Source: an uncultured Porphyromonadaceae bacterium
Lineage (GTDB): Bacteria; Bacteroidota; Bacteroidia; Bacteroidales; Muribaculaceae
Assembly: GCA_947175645.1 (NCBI GenBank)
Contig: CAMWNP010000005.1
Coordinates: 1 to 64,000 of the forward strand
DNA: 64,000 nt
Direction of reading: 5' to 3'
Part shown: in pieces, positions 10,199 through 18,752 of the stretch
How the letters are laid out: each line of letters starts with the position of its first letter
Position numbering within the stretch: the first letter of the stretch is position 1
Notes under the pieces: generated by a model
What the model saw: the letters and a program-made list of their open reading frames with translations, nothing else
What the model was told of the DNA's origin: nothing
Databases searched by the model: none
Position numbers and translations under genes: made by a program

Positions 10199-11179
10199 TT
10201 AGAATGCTTTGATGGCTATGTCAGTGAGCCAGATCCAGAGAGGACAGGTTACGACAAACAGGATTACACTTAATGTGAGGGAAGAAGTACCGGTTGCAAC
10301 GTAAGTGTTGTATTCGTCAGCGATGATGATACCTGAGAAGGCCGGGGGAAGCGCTGCTGCCACAACGAGCATTTTCAGATTTTCGGGATCCATGTGGAAG
10401 AGAAGTCCGAGGATGAGCACCACTGCGGGCATTACGAACATCTTGAGGATTGAACCGAGGATCACCTGCCAGTTGATTGACACTTTGATTGCAGAAAGGG
10501 TTATACCGGCTGAGAACACTGCCATTGAGGCATTGGCTTTAGCCATCAGGTCAAATGAAGGACTGAGTTCTTTAGGCCAGGGTATACCGGCGAGGACCCA
10601 TACAACGGCGAGGATAGGAGCCCAGGCCACAGGCTGGGCCAACGCGTGGAGCACGGGTTTCCATGCTGATTCTTTTTTACCGCCGTTCGCGGCTCCCTGT
10701 TTGGCAAGGGATGCGTTCATGAGTGAAAGTCCCACGGGAATACCGACGGCGTTGACCACGATACCTACGATGGCAACCACAAGTGCAACTGCGGGAAGAC
10801 CTACTGTAGAGTCAAAGATAGGCTCAAGAACGGCAAATCCGAGGAAGCCGATTGTTGGTGAACCACTGATCAAGGCGCTGATGGCGGCATCCGCACCGGT
10901 GTTTTTCTTGAAGCAGTATTTGAAAATGAAGTATACGAGCATGAAACAGCCCATTATACCCAGCAACGATACGATGGTAAGGTTGATGTCTTTGGCAAGG
11001 TCTTCGCGTGATGACTGCACGATAGAAACGAACAGTGCGGCCGGCAATGCGAAGTCAAGCACTACTTTATTGAATTTTTTTGCGTCATCACCGCTGAAGG
11101 CTCCCTTTTTACCGGCAATGTAACCGGCGAGCATGATCACGACGATAGGCACGATGGCGTATAGAATGATGTGTGTCAT
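10199..11179 (-). CDS. AEC-family permease, probable oxalate/formate carrier
   Basis: 326 residues with about ten hydrophobic segments in two five-helix halves, as in the auxin efflux carrier (AEC) family. Each half shows the unwound small-residue/proline helices ('DFALPAALFVSI' in the first, 'ALPPAFSGIIIADEYN' in the second). The gene is the last of the frc-oxc operon. Escherichia coli has the same trio (yfdW = frc, yfdU = oxc, yfdV = an AEC permease). The likely job is therefore uptake of oxalate, or oxalate/formate exchange, at the inner membrane. Substrate assignment rests on context only. A structured 154-base gap separates it from oxc. Confidence 0.8.
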   Translation of the reverse strand: MTHIILYAIVPIVVIMLAGYIAGKKGAFSGDDAKKFNKVVLDFALPAALFVSIVQSSREDLAKDINLTIVSLLGIMGCFMLVYFIFKYCFKKNTGADAAISALISGSPTIGFLGFAVLEPIFDSTVGLPAVALVVAIVGIVVNAVGIPVGLSLMNASLAKQGAANGGKKESAWKPVLHALAQPVAWAPILAVVWVLAGIPWPKELSPSFDLMAKANASMAVFSAGITLSAIKVSINWQVILGSILKMFVMPAVVLILGLLFHMDPENLKMLVVAAALPPAFSGIIIADEYNTYVATGTSSLTLSVILFVVTCPLWIWLTDIAIKAF

Positions 11180-11333
11180 GATAAATTGAATTTAGTGATT
11201 TAAATAGTTGATTAGGGAGAATCCGCCGTCAGTTTCCGGTCAGACGGCCGGGGCGACGGATTTCTATGGTTTCCGGATTCCGGAGAGAGGCTGGTTCAGC
11301 CCTCCGCCGGATCCGTTGGCCATGATATTCCTA

Positions 11334-13079
11334 TCAGACGGTGTAGTCGATAAGAGGAGTTGGGTTGAGGTAACCGATGTGTCCGCTTTCCTTACCGGAG
11401 TCGGCTGCCAACTGAACGTTTATCAGTGCAGGTTTCTTTGAAGCGATTGCCTCGGTGAGAGCCTTGGTGAGTTCATCGGGTGTGCTTACGTAGTATGCCG
11501 CACCGCCGAAAGCCTCGGCCATCTTGTCATAACGTGCGTTGATGTCAAGGGTTGTTGGAGCAGGTTCGTCTGTTCCACCGGGATTCACACCCACACCGTT
11601 GTAGATACCTCCGTTGTTGAAGATCACTACCGTGCAGGGGAGTTTGTAGCGGCAGATTGTTGCGAATTCCATTCCTGAGAAACCGAAGGCAGAGTCACCT
11701 TCCACGGCAACAACGCTCTTGCCTGTTGCAACGGCAGCACCGATTGTGGAACCCATACCCATACCCATGATTGACCATGATGCGCAGTCAACGCGGTGGC
11801 GGGGAAGTGCCATGTCAACAGTGTCACGTGTGTCGTCCAGAGTGTTGGCACCCTCATTGATGAGGATAACGTCGGGGTTGGATTCAAGAATAGGTTTGAT
11901 TGCGCTCAAGGCTGTCCAGTGGTTCATGGGCTGAGCGGTTGCTGCAGCCTGCAGACGAGCCTCGAATTTCTTGTTCTTTTCTGCTGTTTCAGCCTGGAGT
12001 GAAGGAACCCATGTGGGGTCAAACGCAGTTTTGTATTTGGGCAGTTCGGCCAGGATTGCCTTCAGTGATTCGTTCATGTCGCCGACAACGGGTGCGGCTA
12101 CGGGAACGTTACGGTCAATTTCGCGTGGCTCAACATCGAGTTGTACGAATTTGACATTCGGGTTCCATTTACCTTTACCGAATGAGAGCATCCAGTTGAT
12201 ACGTGCGCCTATAACGATTACCACATCGGCCTGCTCCATGATTGTTGAGCGGCATGAAAGCGCACTCAGATCGCCTTTGTCAGGAAGAACACCTTTGGCC
12301 ATAGACATTGCCAGATACGGAATCTTGTAGGTGTCGCTGAGTTGTTTGATCAGATCTTCGGCCTGAGCCTGTGCAGCACCTTTACCAATGAGGATGGCAG
12401 GTTTCTTGGCTGCTGCGATTGTCTGTGCCGCGCGTGTCACCGCATCAGCGTTAGGAGCGACCTTTGAGTAGACGTCAACAGGTGAGAAATAAAGTTTTTC
12501 TGCTTCTGCTGCATCCATGACTTCACCGAGGGCGGGAGTTGTCATGTCGATATATACACCGCCGGGACGACCGCTTACGGCTGCACGATATGCACGTGCT
12601 ACGGCAGCAGGGATGTCTTTGGCATGGCTGCAACGGAATGCTGCCTTAACATAGGGACGGGCAGCGTTCAACTGGTCGAGTTGTTCGTATGTACCCATGT
12701 CCATATCAACCATCTGAGGATCTGAAGCACCTGAAATCTGTATCATAGGATAGCAGTTCACGGTTGCGTTGATTGTTGCTGTCAGACCGTTGAGGAATCC
12801 AAGAGATGAAACAGTCAGCAATACACCGGGTTTGCCGGTGAGGTAGCCATGAGTGGCGGCTGCCATACCTGCCTGCTGTTCAAAACGGAATCCGTAGTAA
12901 TTCATGCCTATTTTCTGCATTGCGTATGCTACTTCGGTCACGGGGATACCCACCAGACCGTATACATCCATCAGTCCGAGACGGCGAAGTGATTCTGCCA
13001 AAATATACATACCGGTTACCTGCTCCGGAAATTTGGGAGCGGCAGGGGTTGTTGAAGTGGTATTAGTTGTTGTGCTCAT
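11334..13079 (-). CDS. oxc: Oxalyl-CoA decarboxylase
   Basis: 581 residues from the ATG at 13079. The protein converts oxalyl-CoA to formyl-CoA and CO2 using thiamine diphosphate. The three ThDP-enzyme domains are evident: N-terminal Pyr domain (MYILAESLRRLG...), central domain, and C-terminal PP domain with 'EGDSAFGFSGMEFATICRY' followed by 'IFNNGGIYNGV', the diphosphate/Mg site typical of Oxc. The frame is open back to 13145, but those residues are not Oxc-like. The first 20 residues are Thr/Ala/Pro-rich and seem to be an extra N-terminal tail. Cytoplasmic; it lies between frc and the AEC carrier. Confidence 0.95.
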   Translation of the reverse strand: MSTTTNTTSTTPAAPKFPEQVTGMYILAESLRRLGLMDVYGLVGIPVTEVAYAMQKIGMNYYGFRFEQQAGMAAATHGYLTGKPGVLLTVSSLGFLNGLTATINATVNCYPMIQISGASDPQMVDMDMGTYEQLDQLNAARPYVKAAFRCSHAKDIPAAVARAYRAAVSGRPGGVYIDMTTPALGEVMDAAEAEKLYFSPVDVYSKVAPNADAVTRAAQTIAAAKKPAILIGKGAAQAQAEDLIKQLSDTYKIPYLAMSMAKGVLPDKGDLSALSCRSTIMEQADVVIVIGARINWMLSFGKGKWNPNVKFVQLDVEPREIDRNVPVAAPVVGDMNESLKAILAELPKYKTAFDPTWVPSLQAETAEKNKKFEARLQAAATAQPMNHWTALSAIKPILESNPDVILINEGANTLDDTRDTVDMALPRHRVDCASWSIMGMGMGSTIGAAVATGKSVVAVEGDSAFGFSGMEFATICRYKLPCTVVIFNNGGIYNGVGVNPGGTDEPAPTTLDINARYDKMAEAFGGAAYYVSTPDELTKALTEAIASKKPALINVQLAADSGKESGHIGYLNPTPLIDYTV

Positions 13080-13125
13080 AAGAGAATTTTTTTTTAACGT
13101 GTTGTAAGTTATAATATGAAAGGGT

Positions 13126-13161
13126 GACCTGCGGAGATCCTTCACGGATTATCCGCAAGTC
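13126..13161 (-). other. Hairpin in the frc-oxc spacer
   Basis: The arms GACTTGCGGA and TCCGCAGGTC (one mismatch) enclose a second inner stem (GAT-ATCC with GGAT-TC), forming a long stem-loop in the transcript between frc and oxc. There is no T-run after it on the minus strand apart from AT-rich sequence near the oxc start, so an mRNA-processing or stabilising element is more likely than a terminator. Confidence 0.5.
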
Positions 13162-13177
13162 GCCGGTATGTCAAGGT

Positions 13178-14518
13178 TTATTTCTGTGCTGTGGCAGTTG
13201 ATGCTGCGGGAGCGGCAGGTTTGGGAGCGGGAGCGGTTGTACCGTTCTTAGCGAATTCGTCGATCTCAGCCTGAGTGTAACCAAGAGAGGTAAGCACTTC
13301 AGTGGTGTTGCCACCGAGTTCAGGAGCAGGACCATAAGTAGGCTGGTAGTTTGACATTGTGAAGGGGCAACCTACGGTTACGAATTCACCGATTTCACCA
13401 CCCTGGTTGATGCGGACGAGAGTGTTGCCGTCATAAAGGCTTTCATCAGTCATCATTTCTTTGGTTGAAAGAACGGGACCTACAGGAACACCTGCTTTAC
13501 CGAGGATTTCAGTAACCTCATATTTGGTTTTGTCAGCAGTCCACTGACCAACTCTCTGATAGATTTCCTGTTTGTGACGGTCACGTGCGTCTGCAGTGTT
13601 GAAGTCGGGATTGGTCAACCAGTCCTGGAAGCCTACAGCGTTGCAGAAGAGTTCGAAATCTTTCGCGCCGCGCTGAAGAACAATGTAGACATAGTTGTTG
13701 GCGTCAAGTTCGGTGTCATAACCGCCGGCGGGCTTGCATTTATATGTCCAACCGAGAACACCACCACCTTCGATGTTACCTGAACGAGGAACACAATCAC
13801 CGAATTTTCCATCGGGATACTGCGGGAACTGAGTCAGATAACCGATCTTGTCAAGAGTCAACTGGTCACGGGTCTTAATACGGCAGAGGTTAAGACATGC
13901 GTTGTGCATTGACTGATAAACGTAAACACCTTCACCGGTTTTTTCACGCTGAACAACAGCGGCGAGCAAACCAATCAACAGGTGCATACCTGTGTTTGAG
14001 TCACCAAGAGCGGCACCACTCTGGGTAGGGATGTTGTATTCGCCGTCATACCAGCCGGTGGTTGAAGCGGCTGCTGCAGTCACCTGTGCGATAGGTTCGT
14101 ATGCTTTAAGATCTTTGTATTTTGAAGAAACAGGGAAACCTTTGATAGTACCATAAATACAGCGGGGGTTCAAGGCATGAACGGCTTCCCAACTGAAGCC
14201 CAGTTTATCCATTGCACCCGGGTGCAGGTTTTCAACGAAGATATCACATTCTTTAATAAGTTTGGTAAGAATAGCCTTGCCATCAGGTGTTTTAGCGTCA
14301 AGAGTAAGAGATTTCTTGTCGCTGTTGAGTTGCAGGAAGTAGTAACTGGGCAGATCAGGATTGAACTGAAGTTCCTTACGTGTTGCGTCACCAACTCCGG
14401 GACGTTCGATTTTTATTACATCGGCTCCGAGCCATGCTAACATTTGTGTACAAGAAGGACCGGACTGAACTTCTGTGAAGTCTACTACTTTCAAGCCTTG
14501 TAGAGGTGCTGTATTCAT
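13178..14518 (-). CDS. frc: Formyl-CoA:oxalate CoA-transferase
   Basis: 446 residues, a class III CoA-transferase (CaiB/BaiF family). It moves CoA from formyl-CoA to oxalate, feeding Oxc and closing the oxalate cycle. The N-terminus 'LKVVDFTEVQSGPSCTQMLAWLGADVIKIERP' (spread over residues 9-41) and 'GAALGDSNTGMHL' around residue 170, where the catalytic Asp sits, are diagnostic. The C-terminus carries an extra tail of about 20 residues rich in Ala, Pro and Thr that normal Frc lacks. It is first in the operon and is preceded by a well-matched promoter at 14647-14678 with a leader of about 120 bases. Confidence 0.95.
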   Translation of the reverse strand: MNTAPLQGLKVVDFTEVQSGPSCTQMLAWLGADVIKIERPGVGDATRKELQFNPDLPSYYFLQLNSDKKSLTLDAKTPDGKAILTKLIKECDIFVENLHPGAMDKLGFSWEAVHALNPRCIYGTIKGFPVSSKYKDLKAYEPIAQVTAAAASTTGWYDGEYNIPTQSGAALGDSNTGMHLLIGLLAAVVQREKTGEGVYVYQSMHNACLNLCRIKTRDQLTLDKIGYLTQFPQYPDGKFGDCVPRSGNIEGGGVLGWTYKCKPAGGYDTELDANNYVYIVLQRGAKDFELFCNAVGFQDWLTNPDFNTADARDRHKQEIYQRVGQWTADKTKYEVTEILGKAGVPVGPVLSTKEMMTDESLYDGNTLVRINQGGEIGEFVTVGCPFTMSNYQPTYGPAPELGGNTTEVLTSLGYTQAEIDEFAKNGTTAPAPKPAAPAASTATAQK

Positions 14519-14646: not shown

Positions 14647-14678
14647 CAAAGATAACAGGAAAAACGGCTCCCGGGCAA
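14647..14678 (-). promoter_or_regulatory. Promoter of the frc-oxc-carrier operon
   Basis: The minus strand reads TTG (14678-14676), 21 bases, then TATCTTTG (14654-14647). The start would be near 14640, giving a leader of about 120 bases before frc. It is divergent from the Rhs gene promoter, with only about 60 bases between the two. Confidence 0.65.
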
Positions 14679-14706
14679 TGAATAAACCTCAAAATACACG
14701 GAAAAC

Positions 14707-14737
14707 TTGCAGGTTAGATAGAAATTCCATATATTTG
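14707..14737 (+). promoter_or_regulatory. Promoter of the Rhs-tip cassette
   Basis: TTG (14707-14709), 20 bases and TATATTTG (14730-14737) fit the consensus. The start would be near 14744, about 25 bases before the ATG. A dedicated promoter argues that the short Rhs gene is a real independent gene rather than a random 3' scrap. Confidence 0.65.
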
Positions 14738-14768
14738 CCAAACACTAACAAATCATTTCTCTCTTGCC

Positions 14769-15854
14769 ATGAAAAAATATTCCAACCGCTCGGTCACCGA
14801 AGGGTGTTCGTTCTACGGCAACTTTGAGGCTGATAACAAATCGTTCCGTCTGAACACCTCCACCGGCTACTACGATGTGACCTCCGGCGAGCACTATCAG
14901 TATCTGCGCAACCTACAGGGTTCGGTGATGGCGGTGGTCAACAGCCGTGGTGAGACAGTGCAACGCACCGGACTCTATCCTTCCGGCACTCCCTATATCC
15001 TCCCCTGCGACTACAAGTCAGACGGCACTAACGATATGACCCCCAAGACCGACCGCCTCCACATTGGCAATCACTGGATGAGCCAGTCCGGTCTGAACCT
15101 CTACGACAACACCGCCCGCATGCACGATCCCGTCCTGTGTGACATGAAATCCGGAGACCCCAAATTCTCAGAATATCCCTCCATGAGCCATTATTCATTC
15201 TGTGGAGCGAATCCAGCGAATATCATTGACCCCCTCGGAGAAGATTGGTATGTGGATGAAAGAGGATGGCTTAATTGGATAGAGTCTCAGGAAGCATTTA
15301 TTGAAGATAAAATTAAGGGTTATTATTTAGGAGAAACTGCAGTCGTTGTTATCGGTTCAAGAAACGAAACTTTAGGAGTGAAAAATGGTAAATCAGGTTA
15401 TATCGATGGTGAAGGAGCGATTACGGCAACTGCTTATATATGTGGAAGTGAAGGAGCAGATGATGTTACCTCATATACGGCTTTTACAATGTCATCAGAT
15501 TATGCGAAGTATGGTGCCATTGCTGATGGCGTTTACACTTTATCTTATAGAGAATATAGTGGGACCGGTAGTATTCCAAAGAATTACTGGTTAAACTATG
15601 GGAAACCTGTCAATTGTCTTGACGGTAAAAATCCAAATCCTTTTGACGCTTATTCTACTACTCAGAAGAATGGAATATTTGTTCACCGAACAAATTTGGA
15701 CGGATTTGCCGGTTGGCATTCGGAGGAAAAACCAGTTTCGTCTGGATGTATTCTAATAGATACAAAACAGTGGGATGGATTTGTGAAAAATTTAAATAAA
15801 GTAATGAGTAAGAGTGGAACTTCGGAACTATTATTGTTCTTGGGTAGATATTAA
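14769..15854 (+). CDS. Short Rhs-core protein with L,D-transpeptidase-like C-terminal toxin domain
   Basis: 361 residues. Residues about 40-158 are the end of an Rhs/YD-repeat core: 'YQYLRNLQGSVMAVVNSRGE', 'GLNLYDNTARMHDP', then 'YSFCGANPANIIDPLGEDW', the classic junction motif. Everything after it is AT-richer and unrelated to Rhs. The C-terminal part ends 'GIFVHRTNLDGFAG...VSSGCILI', with His306 and Cys327 spaced as in the His...(S)xGC site of YkuD-type L,D-transpeptidases; the second site His is Ser here. A peptidoglycan-acting toxin is inferred. No signal peptide or delivery domain is present and the large Rhs shell is missing. Two exported SH3-like proteins follow and may be its immunity. 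Confidence 0.75.
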   Translation: MKKYSNRSVTEGCSFYGNFEADNKSFRLNTSTGYYDVTSGEHYQYLRNLQGSVMAVVNSRGETVQRTGLYPSGTPYILPCDYKSDGTNDMTPKTDRLHIGNHWMSQSGLNLYDNTARMHDPVLCDMKSGDPKFSEYPSMSHYSFCGANPANIIDPLGEDWYVDERGWLNWIESQEAFIEDKIKGYYLGETAVVVIGSRNETLGVKNGKSGYIDGEGAITATAYICGSEGADDVTSYTAFTMSSDYAKYGAIADGVYTLSYREYSGTGSIPKNYWLNYGKPVNCLDGKNPNPFDAYSTTQKNGIFVHRTNLDGFAGWHSEEKPVSSGCILIDTKQWDGFVKNLNKVMSKSGTSELLLFLGRY

Positions 15855-15870
15855 GTTAATTATGTTATAC

Positions 15871-16716
15871 ATGAAGAAATATATAACGATTTTTGGTGTG
15901 CTGTTGATGTTCGGCAATATTTGTTGTAAAGCAGAGAGTAGACATAAACGCTTCGCAGCGGAGGTCCGTTTTGAGAGTCTGCGGAGTTATCCGGATTCAA
16001 CGTACAGCGAGCATAATGCCATACTGTTCTCCGGTTGTGACGGAGATGTGTGGCAGTACAATGTGAGAGGTGAAGCGGCGGATCGTCTTTATCTGGAACT
16101 CCGTAAGCCTGAAAGTGATTTCAGTATCACCACGTGGGTTGATAAATCAGATGTGGCTGTTGACTCTGTTGGAGAGATCCCTTTAAGGCTTGCCGAGCCT
16201 GTTTATCATTACAAACTATCACGACCGTTCAAATATTGTTATATAGAAACAATCATGTCATCAACGGCTCCGGGAATAGTGTATGCCGATTCTGTCGCAA
16301 CGGAATACAGTGCGGTGCTTAATGATATATACATGAAAGATTTGTATTGGGGCGGAGCCATAGTGGATAAGTCGGAAAACCGCCTGAAAGTTGAACTGAT
16401 GCAGGACTTGTCAGGTTCAATATCGGAATCCCTGGTGACAGGATGGGTTGATAAGGGAACTCTGGTTGTATACCCTTCTAATAACACAAAAGCGGGTGCC
16501 GGAGTGTTTTTCTTGTATCAACAGCCTGATGATCAGTCAAATCATCGGCAGTATGATAACGAGATGGTTGGGGAGTTCTCGGTTCTTGACTATGTTAAGG
16601 ATAGCAGAACCGGTGAGACGTGGCTTAAAGTGGAGTTTATCCATAGACCGGATGGGACAACCGTTACCGGTTGGATAGACCATTGGTGTGATTCTGTGTG
16701 GACTTGTGGAAATTAA
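15871..16716 (+). CDS. Exported SH3-like repeat protein, candidate immunity protein 1
   Basis: 281 residues from the ATG at 15871; ATG 15862 is a 3-codon longer alternative. An N-terminal signal peptide ends in 'GNICCKA', which could be a lipobox. Three SH3-like units follow, each ending in 'W(V/I)D': 'ITTWVDKSDVAVDS' near residue 90, 'VTGWVDKGTLVVYP' near 190, and 'TWLKVEFIH...VTGWIDHW' near 255-275. It is a paralogue of the next gene, sharing 'ILFSGC' and 'DKSENRLK-ELMQDL'. It starts 16 bases after the Rhs-tip gene, in one operon. A periplasmic immunity function is inferred from position, export and the wall-binding reputation of SH3 folds. Confidence 0.65.
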   Translation: MKKYITIFGVLLMFGNICCKAESRHKRFAAEVRFESLRSYPDSTYSEHNAILFSGCDGDVWQYNVRGEAADRLYLELRKPESDFSITTWVDKSDVAVDSVGEIPLRLAEPVYHYKLSRPFKYCYIETIMSSTAPGIVYADSVATEYSAVLNDIYMKDLYWGGAIVDKSENRLKVELMQDLSGSISESLVTGWVDKGTLVVYPSNNTKAGAGVFFLYQQPDDQSNHRQYDNEMVGEFSVLDYVKDSRTGETWLKVEFIHRPDGTTVTGWIDHWCDSVWTCGN

Positions 16717-16722
16717 TATATT

Positions 16723-17592
16723 ATGAAGAAATTACTTTTCATGTCAGTGTGCGTGGCGGCAACGATTGCGGTTTGCACGTCTTGTCAGTCGGAGAAAATT
16801 GTAAACCGTCAGTATCCAACGGTGGATGTGGATTTCGGAAGTATAAAAAGTTATCCTGATTCAATTTCTGACCACGCAAATGCCATACTTTTTTCGGGAT
16901 GTGAACCAAATTGGGAATGTGGTCTGATTGGGGAATCATCTGACAGGTTGTATGTGGAATTAAGCAGACCGGACGATGATTTCAGCATAACCACCTGGGT
17001 GAACAAATCAGCGTTTTCTGTAGATACAGTTGTGGAGTTGGAATATGAACGGGTTAAGCCTCGCTATCACTTCGTTGATGGGAAACAGATGCCGGGGATT
17101 GAAGCAATCATGACCAAACAGTTGCGCGTGTTGGTTTATGCTGACTCGGTTTCAGCCTCCTTCAGTGCTGCGTTAAGCAACATCCCGTGGATGAGTCTTT
17201 TCTGGGGTGGTCGTATAATCGACAAGTCGGAAAATCGACTGAAAATGGAGTTGATGCAGGATTTAGCCCAACCCGGATCTACCGAGTCATTGATAACGGG
17301 ATGGGTGGAAAAGGGTATGCCGGTTGTTTTCCCTCCTAAGAACGGAGCGGATAGCAAGGCTGGGCCCAACCTGTTTATTTTGTATCAGAAGCCTACGGTT
17401 CATTCCGGGAATCAGCGGTATGTGAGAAATTACATCAACAAAAAAGAACTGCTTATCCTTGATTATGCGATTGATGAGAATGGGGAAAAATGGCTTAAAG
17501 TGAAGTTCTTCTATCTTAACCCACTGGATGCTACCCCCGTCGTCGGGTGGATAAACCAATGGTCAGCCAACTTGCAGGATGGCGTGGATTGA
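16723..17592 (+). CDS. SH3-like repeat lipoprotein, candidate immunity protein 2
   Basis: 289 residues. The start MKKLLFMSVCVAATIAVCTSC gives a lipoprotein signal with Cys21 as the lipidated residue. It is a clear paralogue of the preceding protein with the same three-unit layout: 'ITTWVNKSAFSVDT', then 'WGGRIIDKSENRLKMELMQ' leading to 'ITGWVEKGMPVVFP', then 'KWLKVKFFY...VVGWINQW'. It begins 6 bases after its neighbour's stop. Duplicated immunity-like genes behind an Rhs tip are common in polymorphic toxin loci, where extra copies can protect against related toxins. No direct evidence fixes the function. Confidence 0.65.
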   Translation: MKKLLFMSVCVAATIAVCTSCQSEKIVNRQYPTVDVDFGSIKSYPDSISDHANAILFSGCEPNWECGLIGESSDRLYVELSRPDDDFSITTWVNKSAFSVDTVVELEYERVKPRYHFVDGKQMPGIEAIMTKQLRVLVYADSVSASFSAALSNIPWMSLFWGGRIIDKSENRLKMELMQDLAQPGSTESLITGWVEKGMPVVFPPKNGADSKAGPNLFILYQKPTVHSGNQRYVRNYINKKELLILDYAIDENGEKWLKVKFFYLNPLDATPVVGWINQWSANLQDGVD

Positions 17593-17624: not shown

Positions 17625-18752
17625 TCAGAGGCTGTTTATGATGGCTGCTATCTCTTCGGCATCCTGCGGGGTGGTGGCAGGTGAGATGGGGAGTGAGATA
17701 CAATGGTCTGCTATTCGGTCTGTGACCGGGAGATGGAGCGAGGCGAAACGGGTGGCATAGCAGGGCTGACGGTGGGGCGGGGTGGCATAGTGGATGTCGG
17801 TCTGCACGCCGTTTGCGGCAAGATCCTTGCGGAACCGGTCGCGGTCAGGAGCGAGGATAACATATTGGTGCCACACATGTTCGGATGGAGATGCCGGGAT
17901 AGCGGGCTTGGTTACTTTAGGGTTGGTGATGTGACGGTCGTATACTGCCGCGAGTGCCTGACGGCGCGCTGATTCCTCACCCAGATGTTTCAGTTTAACG
18001 TTCAACACAGCCGCCTGAACTGGATCGAGCCGGCAGTTGAAGCCGCTGTAAATGTTGTGGTAGCGACGGTCGCTGCCGTAGTTGGCAAGTGCCCTGACGG
18101 TCTCGGCAACTTCGGCATGAGGGGTAAGCACTGCGCCGGCATCACCCATGGCACCGATGTTTTTTGTGGGGTAGAAACTGAATGCCGCTGCGTCGCCCAA
18201 GGCACCGGTCATGCAGTTGCCATATAGTCCTTCCGTTGATGAAACTGCCCCGATGGCCTGCGCGTTATCTTCAAAAAGGAGCAAGTTATGTTTACGGACA
18301 AGTTCACGCATGGTATCATCGTAGGCCACCCGACCGTAGAGATGCACTGTCATTATGGCGCGTGTGCGCGGAGTCAGGGCAGGTTCTATGGCAGCGGAAT
18401 CAATGTTGAGAGTATGTAGTGAAGGCTCTACGGGAACAGGGGTTAGACCGGCCTGAATGATGGCCATCACGGTTGCTATATATGTGTTTGCGGGAACGAT
18501 CACCTCGTCGCCGGGGTTCAGTCGCCCCAGAATTTTGTATGTTTCAAGAATCAGCCTGAGTGCATCCAGTCCATTGCTGACCCCCACGGCATATTCAACT
18601 CCGTGGATTTCTGACATAGTGCGTTCAAAACGAGCATTCTCCTCACCGCCTATGTATCTGCCGCTAATGACCACATTGTCAACCGCACGGCGGATGTCGT
18701 CCATATAAGGGGCATTGACTTTTGCCAGATTCAGGAACTCGAATTGTTTCAT
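17625..18752 (-). CDS. DegT/DnrJ/EryC1/StrS sugar aminotransferase (FdtB/QdtB-like)
   Basis: 375 residues, a fold-type I PLP aminotransferase acting on nucleotide-linked keto sugars. Visible marks are 'GGEENARFE' near residue 36, 'VGVSNGLDALRL' near 57, 'LFEDNAQAIGA' (Asp binding the pyridine N) near 160, and 'FSFYPTKNIGAMGDAG', where the Lys forms the Schiff base, near 197. Together with rfbA, rfbB and the 3,4-ketoisomerases upstream it should make a dTDP-3-amino-3,6-dideoxyhexose, as FdtB or QdtB do. The final acetyltransferase is not in the window. It overlaps the upstream gene by 4 bases and ends 33 bases from the convergent SH3 gene. Confidence 0.88.
   Translation of the reverse strand: MKQFEFLNLAKVNAPYMDDIRRAVDNVVISGRYIGGEENARFERTMSEIHGVEYAVGVSNGLDALRLILETYKILGRLNPGDEVIVPANTYIATVMAIIQAGLTPVPVEPSLHTLNIDSAAIEPALTPRTRAIMTVHLYGRVAYDDTMRELVRKHNLLLFEDNAQAIGAVSSTEGLYGNCMTGALGDAAAFSFYPTKNIGAMGDAGAVLTPHAEVAETVRALANYGSDRRYHNIYSGFNCRLDPVQAAVLNVKLKHLGEESARRQALAAVYDRHITNPKVTKPAIPASPSEHVWHQYVILAPDRDRFRKDLAANGVQTDIHYATPPHRQPCYATRFASLHLPVTDRIADHCISLPISPATTPQDAEEIAAIINSL

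Follow-up and report, generated by a model that had tools for sequence, protein, structure and literature searches.

A probable orphan Rhs toxin-tip cassette with two exported SH3-like proteins as candidate immunity factors in a Muribaculaceae genome

The stretch of DNA analyzed here, referred to as the window, comprises the first 64 kb of contig C5 (CAMWNP010000005.1; 107,760 bases) of an uncultured Muribaculaceae bacterium (assembly GCA_947175645.1; 3.17 Mb in 139 contigs). It carries three adjacent genes that encode the displaced end of an Rhs protein (the tip protein) and two exported SH3-like proteins, SH3-1 and SH3-2. We consider it probable, at roughly 0.78, that this locus is an orphan Rhs toxin-tip/immunity cassette in which SH3-1 and SH3-2 neutralize such tips in the periplasm. 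A first-pass annotation of the sequence had proposed a candidate toxin/immunity cassette, and this proposal is supported by the association of similar tips with SH3-type proteins in other genomes and by an SH3 pair in the related genome G003. The idea that the window tip is itself a working weapon did not hold, as this copy is truncated and has no export signal. The exported SH3 pair is most likely the part of the cassette that works. The features of the locus are as follows.

14663 to 14768, plus strand: conserved leader, with three occurrences in the genome, each before an Rhs tip of the same core type
14707 to 14737, plus strand: promoter of the Bacteroidales kind, TTG-N20-TATATTTG, a pattern match conserved in the three leader copies
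14769 to 15854, plus strand: open reading frame of the tip protein, 361 amino acids
14769 to 15236, plus strand: truncated end of the Rhs core, residues 1-156, without signal peptide
15237 to 15854, plus strand: YkuD-like (L,D-transpeptidase-like) candidate toxin domain, residues 157-361 and stop
15684 to 15686, plus strand: codon of His306, candidate catalytic base
15747 to 15749, plus strand: codon of Cys327, candidate nucleophile (SSGC)
15871 to 16716, plus strand: SH3-1, 281 amino acids from the ATG at 15871 (another in-frame ATG lies at 15862), exported, with SH3-like repeat units; candidate immunity protein
16723 to 17592, plus strand: SH3-2, 289 amino acids, exported paralogue of SH3-1; candidate immunity protein and possible lipoprotein (weak lipobox, by eye)

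The pairing was examined in 149 relatives, 398 genomes of the family and 393 genomes of the order, three overlapping sets that were searched with differing queries and limits. Among the 149 relatives, the tip domain was found in three genomes and SH3-2 in three. Profile searches detected tip-like domains in 10/398 and 6/393 genomes and SH3-type proteins in 7/398 and 3/393. The first-pass annotation had raised the question of whether relatives of the SH3-like genes accompany this domain elsewhere, and they do. An exported SH3-type protein is encoded directly downstream of all seven readable window-like tips (window, G049:C18, G170, G157, G289, G606 and G727), which represent three families; at the junctions the genes overlap by up to 4 bases or lie up to 20 bases apart. 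In contrast, none of the four readable tips of a sister clade (G049:C2, G347, G303 and G624) has an SH3-type neighbor; three of the four are followed by a MORN-type protein, and the next protein of G049:C2 is of neither type. Although the sample is small, this contrast of 7/7 with 0/4 makes a chance pairing unlikely, and the SH3 pair as mere chance neighbors was rejected. Two of the seven, G289 and G727, were included on the basis of the tip; the SH3 genes next to them were absent from the genome-search listings and were recognized afterwards. With a held-out hidden Markov model (HMM), the G289 neighbor scored 26.0 bits against 6.7 for the best of 500 shuffles, and those of G606 and G727 scored 72.1 and 18.8 bits against 8.2 for the best of 1300 shuffles. 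Nine candidate immunity proteins of other kinds reached at most 1.9 bits.

The tip tree points in the same direction. Support is 90/91 for the grouping of six of the seven SH3-linked tips and 91/89 for the sister clade, which has five members. The SH3 label requires one change on this tree, a number that none of 500 shuffles matched. The tip of G289 is 43% identical to the window domain, and the aligned sister-clade tips are 25-27% identical to that domain. In addition, tip similarity and SH3 similarity were correlated over the seven pairs, with SH3-1 representing the window; the Spearman coefficient of 0.77 was equalled or exceeded by 24 of 5040 permutations.

Several tips were left out of the count. 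For G494 the downstream side lies off the contig, and its upstream neighbor scored 9.6 bits, barely above the best shuffle (8.2). G749 was also omitted, as were fragments of G026 (C109 and C101), the neighbors of which were not resolved. G267 has two tip fragments, of which one was examined and has a MORN-type protein (85 bits) behind it; the fragment of G235 contains one internal stop, and its next gene is of MORN type (43 bits), with no hydrophobic start as read. A second tip of the window genome itself, on contig C17 (L016:5548-8990, minus strand), was omitted as its YkuD-like domain is of another kind (E = 3.3e-4; motif RIHGG...TEGCIRAY) and has other neighbors. Behind it come three signal-start genes and 118 bp that remain from the start of SH3-1, then a truncated tip.

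The MORN-type proteins form a second candidate immunity type. The downstream protein of G303 matches MORN_2 with E = 4.9e-10, over the cut-off, and that of G624 with E = 4.7e-4, under it; the G347 protein matches that of G303 (E = 1.2e-20). Directly behind sister-clade tips or tip fragments, such proteins were seen at L032:2100-2690, L033:936-1496, L037:1727-2344, L039:773-1348 and L066:783-1406, four of the five with a hydrophobic start. A separate observation in G606 is a 138-amino-acid frame of tandem short-unit copies (RSQTYYFTQKMER-like) at L074:898-1314.

The second line of evidence comes from G003, which belongs to the same genus (76% complete) and in which the genome searches found no tip domain. 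On its contig C27 the left-hand genes are the same as in the window; three other signal-start genes stand in place of the tip, and the SH3 pair follows. This island (L015:7225-10857) lies at the window's chromosomal site and consists of five same-strand genes with signal-like starts (N-termini by eye) and no toxin. Three of its genes resemble those downstream of the C17 tip. Synonymous divergence (dS) between the window genome and G003 was 0.119 for the 5' part of SH3-1 (198 codons) and 0.135 for SH3-2 (268 codons), against 0.605 for the flanking CoA-transferase gene (433 codons). The SH3 pair therefore appears to have been transferred recently between lineages. The ratio of nonsynonymous to synonymous divergence (dN/dS) was 0.23 for SH3-1 and 0.26 for SH3-2 (Fisher p 3.4e-4 and 3.4e-5); the other three island genes gave 0.71, 0.67 and 0.31. 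The SH3 pair is thus under purifying selection and appears to be conserved where no tip was found. The G003 copy of SH3-1 has a frame change in the assembly with N bases nearby, and may be broken or mis-assembled.

The way in which the SH3-like proteins would protect can be viewed differently. A broader scheme, which we regard as unlikely, holds that the tip clade selects the exported repeat partner (SH3-type or MORN-type), that the SH3 proteins shield the wall substrate besides or instead of binding the toxin, and that toxin-free islands spread between species as a broad periplasmic defense. It is also unlikely, in our judgment, that shielding is the whole explanation, the SH3-like proteins binding peptidoglycan stem peptides and not the toxin, so that protection would cover several L,D-transpeptidase-like tips. 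Bacterial SH3 domains are thought to bind the cell wall. This binding, which the pertinent part of PMC13055248 words as 'presumably', is in line with shielding, as are the SH3-1 remnant inside the cassette of the C17 tip and the position of the G003 SH3 pair next to a homologue of that tip's immunity candidate. However, the downstream protein varies with the tip clade, and tip and SH3 similarities co-vary, both of which are expected of direct binding between SH3 protein and toxin.

The candidate toxin domain is YkuD-like. Pfam YkuD (PF03734) matches the full tip protein at residues 251-334 (E = 3.5e-4). His306 and Cys327 had been described as an L,D-transpeptidase-like arrangement; they are located where claimed, and their spacing, H-X17-S-S-G-C, is as in the YkuD family. 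In an alignment of the window with seven relatives (A7; window residue number = domain number + 156), His306, Ser324, Gly326 and Cys327 are invariant (8/8), and the His and Gly-Cys are present throughout a nine-tip alignment. Five of the eight A7 members match YkuD at E<=1, and the G606 tip does so with E = 0.011.

SH3-1 and SH3-2 are 45% identical, and both N-termini are hydrophobic, in agreement with the first description of them as paralogues with signal peptides. The three SH3-like units attributed to each protein were borne out only in part. Unit 1 resembles unit 2 above 1000/1000 shuffles in both proteins. For units 2 and 3, no shuffle of 1000 was as high in SH3-1, and 305 were in SH3-2; the likeness of units 1 and 3 was not above shuffles (240 and 279 of 1000 as high). 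With an HMM of the unit, built on relatives that have two units, unit 1 did not stand out from shuffled sequence. Two homologues show a Pfam SH3_3 match (E = 7e-5 and 1.9e-5), which in each case falls short of the 27-bit cut-off. At 167-229 amino acids, the relatives other than those of the window and G003 are shorter proteins. A Cys-containing C-terminal tail is present in seven of eight aligned SH3-type proteins and is lost from SH3-2. No match of SH3-1 was found in plasmids.

There are several points that tell against our interpretation. The isolated domain (residues 157-361) matches YkuD with E = 1.4e-4 and 22.9 bits, just under the 23.4-bit cut-off, and three of the eight A7 members, together with the tips of G727 and G494, are without a YkuD match at E<=1. 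HGC is usual for the YkuD family. All 14 tips seen have another residue (Ser, Thr, Gln, Glu, Met or Ala) in place of its histidine, the window having SSGC. The tip profile matches no chain of the PDB, and sequence and profile searches of that database gave nothing usable. The AlphaFold models of the tip domain (predicted local distance difference test, pLDDT, 32.9; from a 2-row alignment) and of SH3-1 (pLDDT 42; 3-row alignment) were too poor for use, and Foldseek with these low-confidence models returned nothing at E<=0.001; YkuD is therefore supported by matches to its profile and by the invariance of His and Cys. The window SH3 proteins have no Pfam SH3 match. On the tip tree, all seven SH3-linked tips group at just 64/65, with G289 unresolved and the clades moderately supported. 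From the SH3 side, five of the nine loci found by SH3 searches adjoin a tip and four (G003, G065, G022 and G578) lack one, which leaves room for other roles of the SH3 family. Finally, the tip protein has no hydrophobic N-terminus or export signal, and no closely matching full Rhs was found for it in its own genome.

The window copy is a truncated orphan tip and, as encoded, is no deliverable weapon, since it lacks that export signal. The Rhs core end noted at first is recognizable: Rhs_assc_core (TIGR03696) matches residues 98-157 with 28.8 bits, below the cut-off of 32.5. G+C content is lower in the domain (0.369) than in the core part (0.538), a difference to be expected if the tip was exchanged. 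The core of the window tip has three further copies in the genome, 78-84% identical. Of these four copies, three have the leader and the fourth has neither core start nor leader. The three tips with the leader have this core in common and diverge in sequence after it. Truncated tips are also located elsewhere in the genome, on C3 and C17, and three other Rhs frames are only 30-34% identical over the core region. G003 contains an Rhs half of 1098 amino acids that begins with a signal-like peptide and joins this core type to a different tip, which indicates that the window tip is the displaced end of such an Rhs protein. A complete stand-alone tip family was rejected, because the core continues upstream in G003.

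Other Rhs arrangements were also observed. On C3 (L061:4715-14869), a 2004-amino-acid Rhs protein with a signal-like start is followed by a 519-amino-acid tip, with several similar signal-start genes between and after them. Short proteins at L032:772-2103 (G347) and L018:1-1041 (G049:C18) seemingly join a signal-peptide-like start to an Rhs tip, most of the Rhs core being absent from the G347 protein; they are perhaps directly exported mini-Rhs toxins. VipB, the sheath protein of the type VI secretion system (T6SS), had no match in the window genome or in 6/6 relatives, which is weak evidence because only E. coli was positive among 14 controls. The tip domain had no match in plasmids or phages, queries A3 and A4 had none in viral contigs, and PADLOC gave none for five proteins.

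The truncation of the core, the missing export signal, the change from HGC to SGC and the truncated tips on C3 and C17 would fit a YkuD-like relic or non-enzymatic variant, with the cassette a decaying fragment without a present role. We consider this quite improbable. The His and Cys are retained in tips of several families, the reading frames are open, the leader is conserved in three copies, and the SH3 genes are under purifying selection. It is very unlikely that the SH3-like proteins are exported accessory factors (wall anchors or co-effectors) or chance-carried wall-binding proteins without an immunity role: the four tip-less SH3 loci favor this, but between the window genome and G003 the pair has diverged much less than the flanking gene and shows purifying selection, although no tip was found in G003, and the 7/7 against 0/4 contrast speaks against chance passengers.

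In an orphan toxin-tip/immunity cassette, the substrate of the L,D-transpeptidase-like domain (His306/Cys327) would be the stem peptides of peptidoglycan, which the domain would reach in a neighboring cell's periplasm when fused to an exported Rhs carrier. Exported SH3-1 and SH3-2 would neutralize such tips in the periplasm, most likely via binding of the domain, and the cassette would be driven by its own conserved promoter. Given the missing export signal and the distance of the genome's other Rhs frames, the window tip is probably in storage or stranded, with the SH3 pair probably kept as protection against tips arriving from neighbors. The enzyme activity, target, binding and delivery of the system are inferred. 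If the interpretation is true, protection against one clade of wall-targeting Rhs tips is provided in three bacterial families by an exported SH3-type family that moves toxin-free between sister species and stays conserved there. Both the specificity of periplasmic toxin immunity and the question of direct inhibition or substrate shielding would then become testable with small proteins.

The layout of the locus is as first described. The three open reading frames were confirmed on the plus strand, separated by 16 and 6 bases. They are flanked on the left by a CoA-transferase-like gene (13178-14518) in divergent orientation and on the right by an aminotransferase-like gene (17625-18752) in convergent orientation, both named by eye. 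The claim of a good promoter upstream was sustained by a pattern of the Bacteroidales kind at 14707-14737; TTG-N20-TAnnTTTG occurs six times in the window against 0.55 expected. The promoter is held in a leader of about 105 bp common to the window, C3 and C17 copies, and a leader search of the genome gave matches at these three places only. The C3 copy of leader and tip (L017:9786-10555) is located directly behind a tRNA-Met gene. Elsewhere in the window, AEC-type transporter-like, oxalyl-CoA decarboxylase-like and formyl-CoA transferase-like genes (10199-14518, by eye) may form an oxalate-degradation cluster.

The first-pass annotation had not recognized the pairing of this tip with SH3-repeat proteins as a described one. 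The search listings and passages of open-licence papers that were covered contain no description of such a tip with SH3-type immunity, and a search on MORN-type immunity listed no paper. However, RHS toxins with L,D-peptidase domains and linked immunity genes were described in 2012, a subset of the immunity proteins being secreted or membrane proteins (PMC3482391). The kind of toxin is therefore known, and any novelty would be confined to the SH3 (and MORN) pairing. That class resembles the window locus in its RHS carrier with an L,D-peptidase domain and in its linked genes, which are candidates for immunity here; among its partners, the parts of the paper covered, including sections 18 and 38, name no SH3-type or MORN-type protein.

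The Tlde1/Tldi1 system of Salmonella also combines an L,D-transpeptidase-like antibacterial toxin with an immunity protein, Tldi1a, that bears a sec signal, as far as the relevant part of PMC9638812 describes it. Tlde1a is a T6SS effector, whereas the window domain is an Rhs tip. Assignment to Tlde1 was rejected, because the Tlde1 motif given there, HXX14-17-(S/T)HGCh, is not matched by H-X17-S-S-G-C, in which the second histidine is missing.

In organization the locus resembles the orphan rhs-CT/immunity pairs of Enterobacteriaceae, which consist of a displaced tip with partial core and a linked immunity gene and which, according to the part of PMC3967940 concerned with them, are activated by recombination with the main rhs gene. 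Unlike those orphans, the window tip comes with a start codon of its own and with a conserved promoter; a closely matching main Rhs was not found in the genome. The toxin-free G003 island of five same-strand candidate immunity genes resembles polyimmunity loci (PMC3482391, section 38) and, as far as search listings show, the orphan immunity genes of Bacteroidales (PMC10470768, PMC12247911). It is set apart from both in that all five of its proteins look exported (by eye) and two are homologous to genes that stand behind a tip at the same site in the sister genome.

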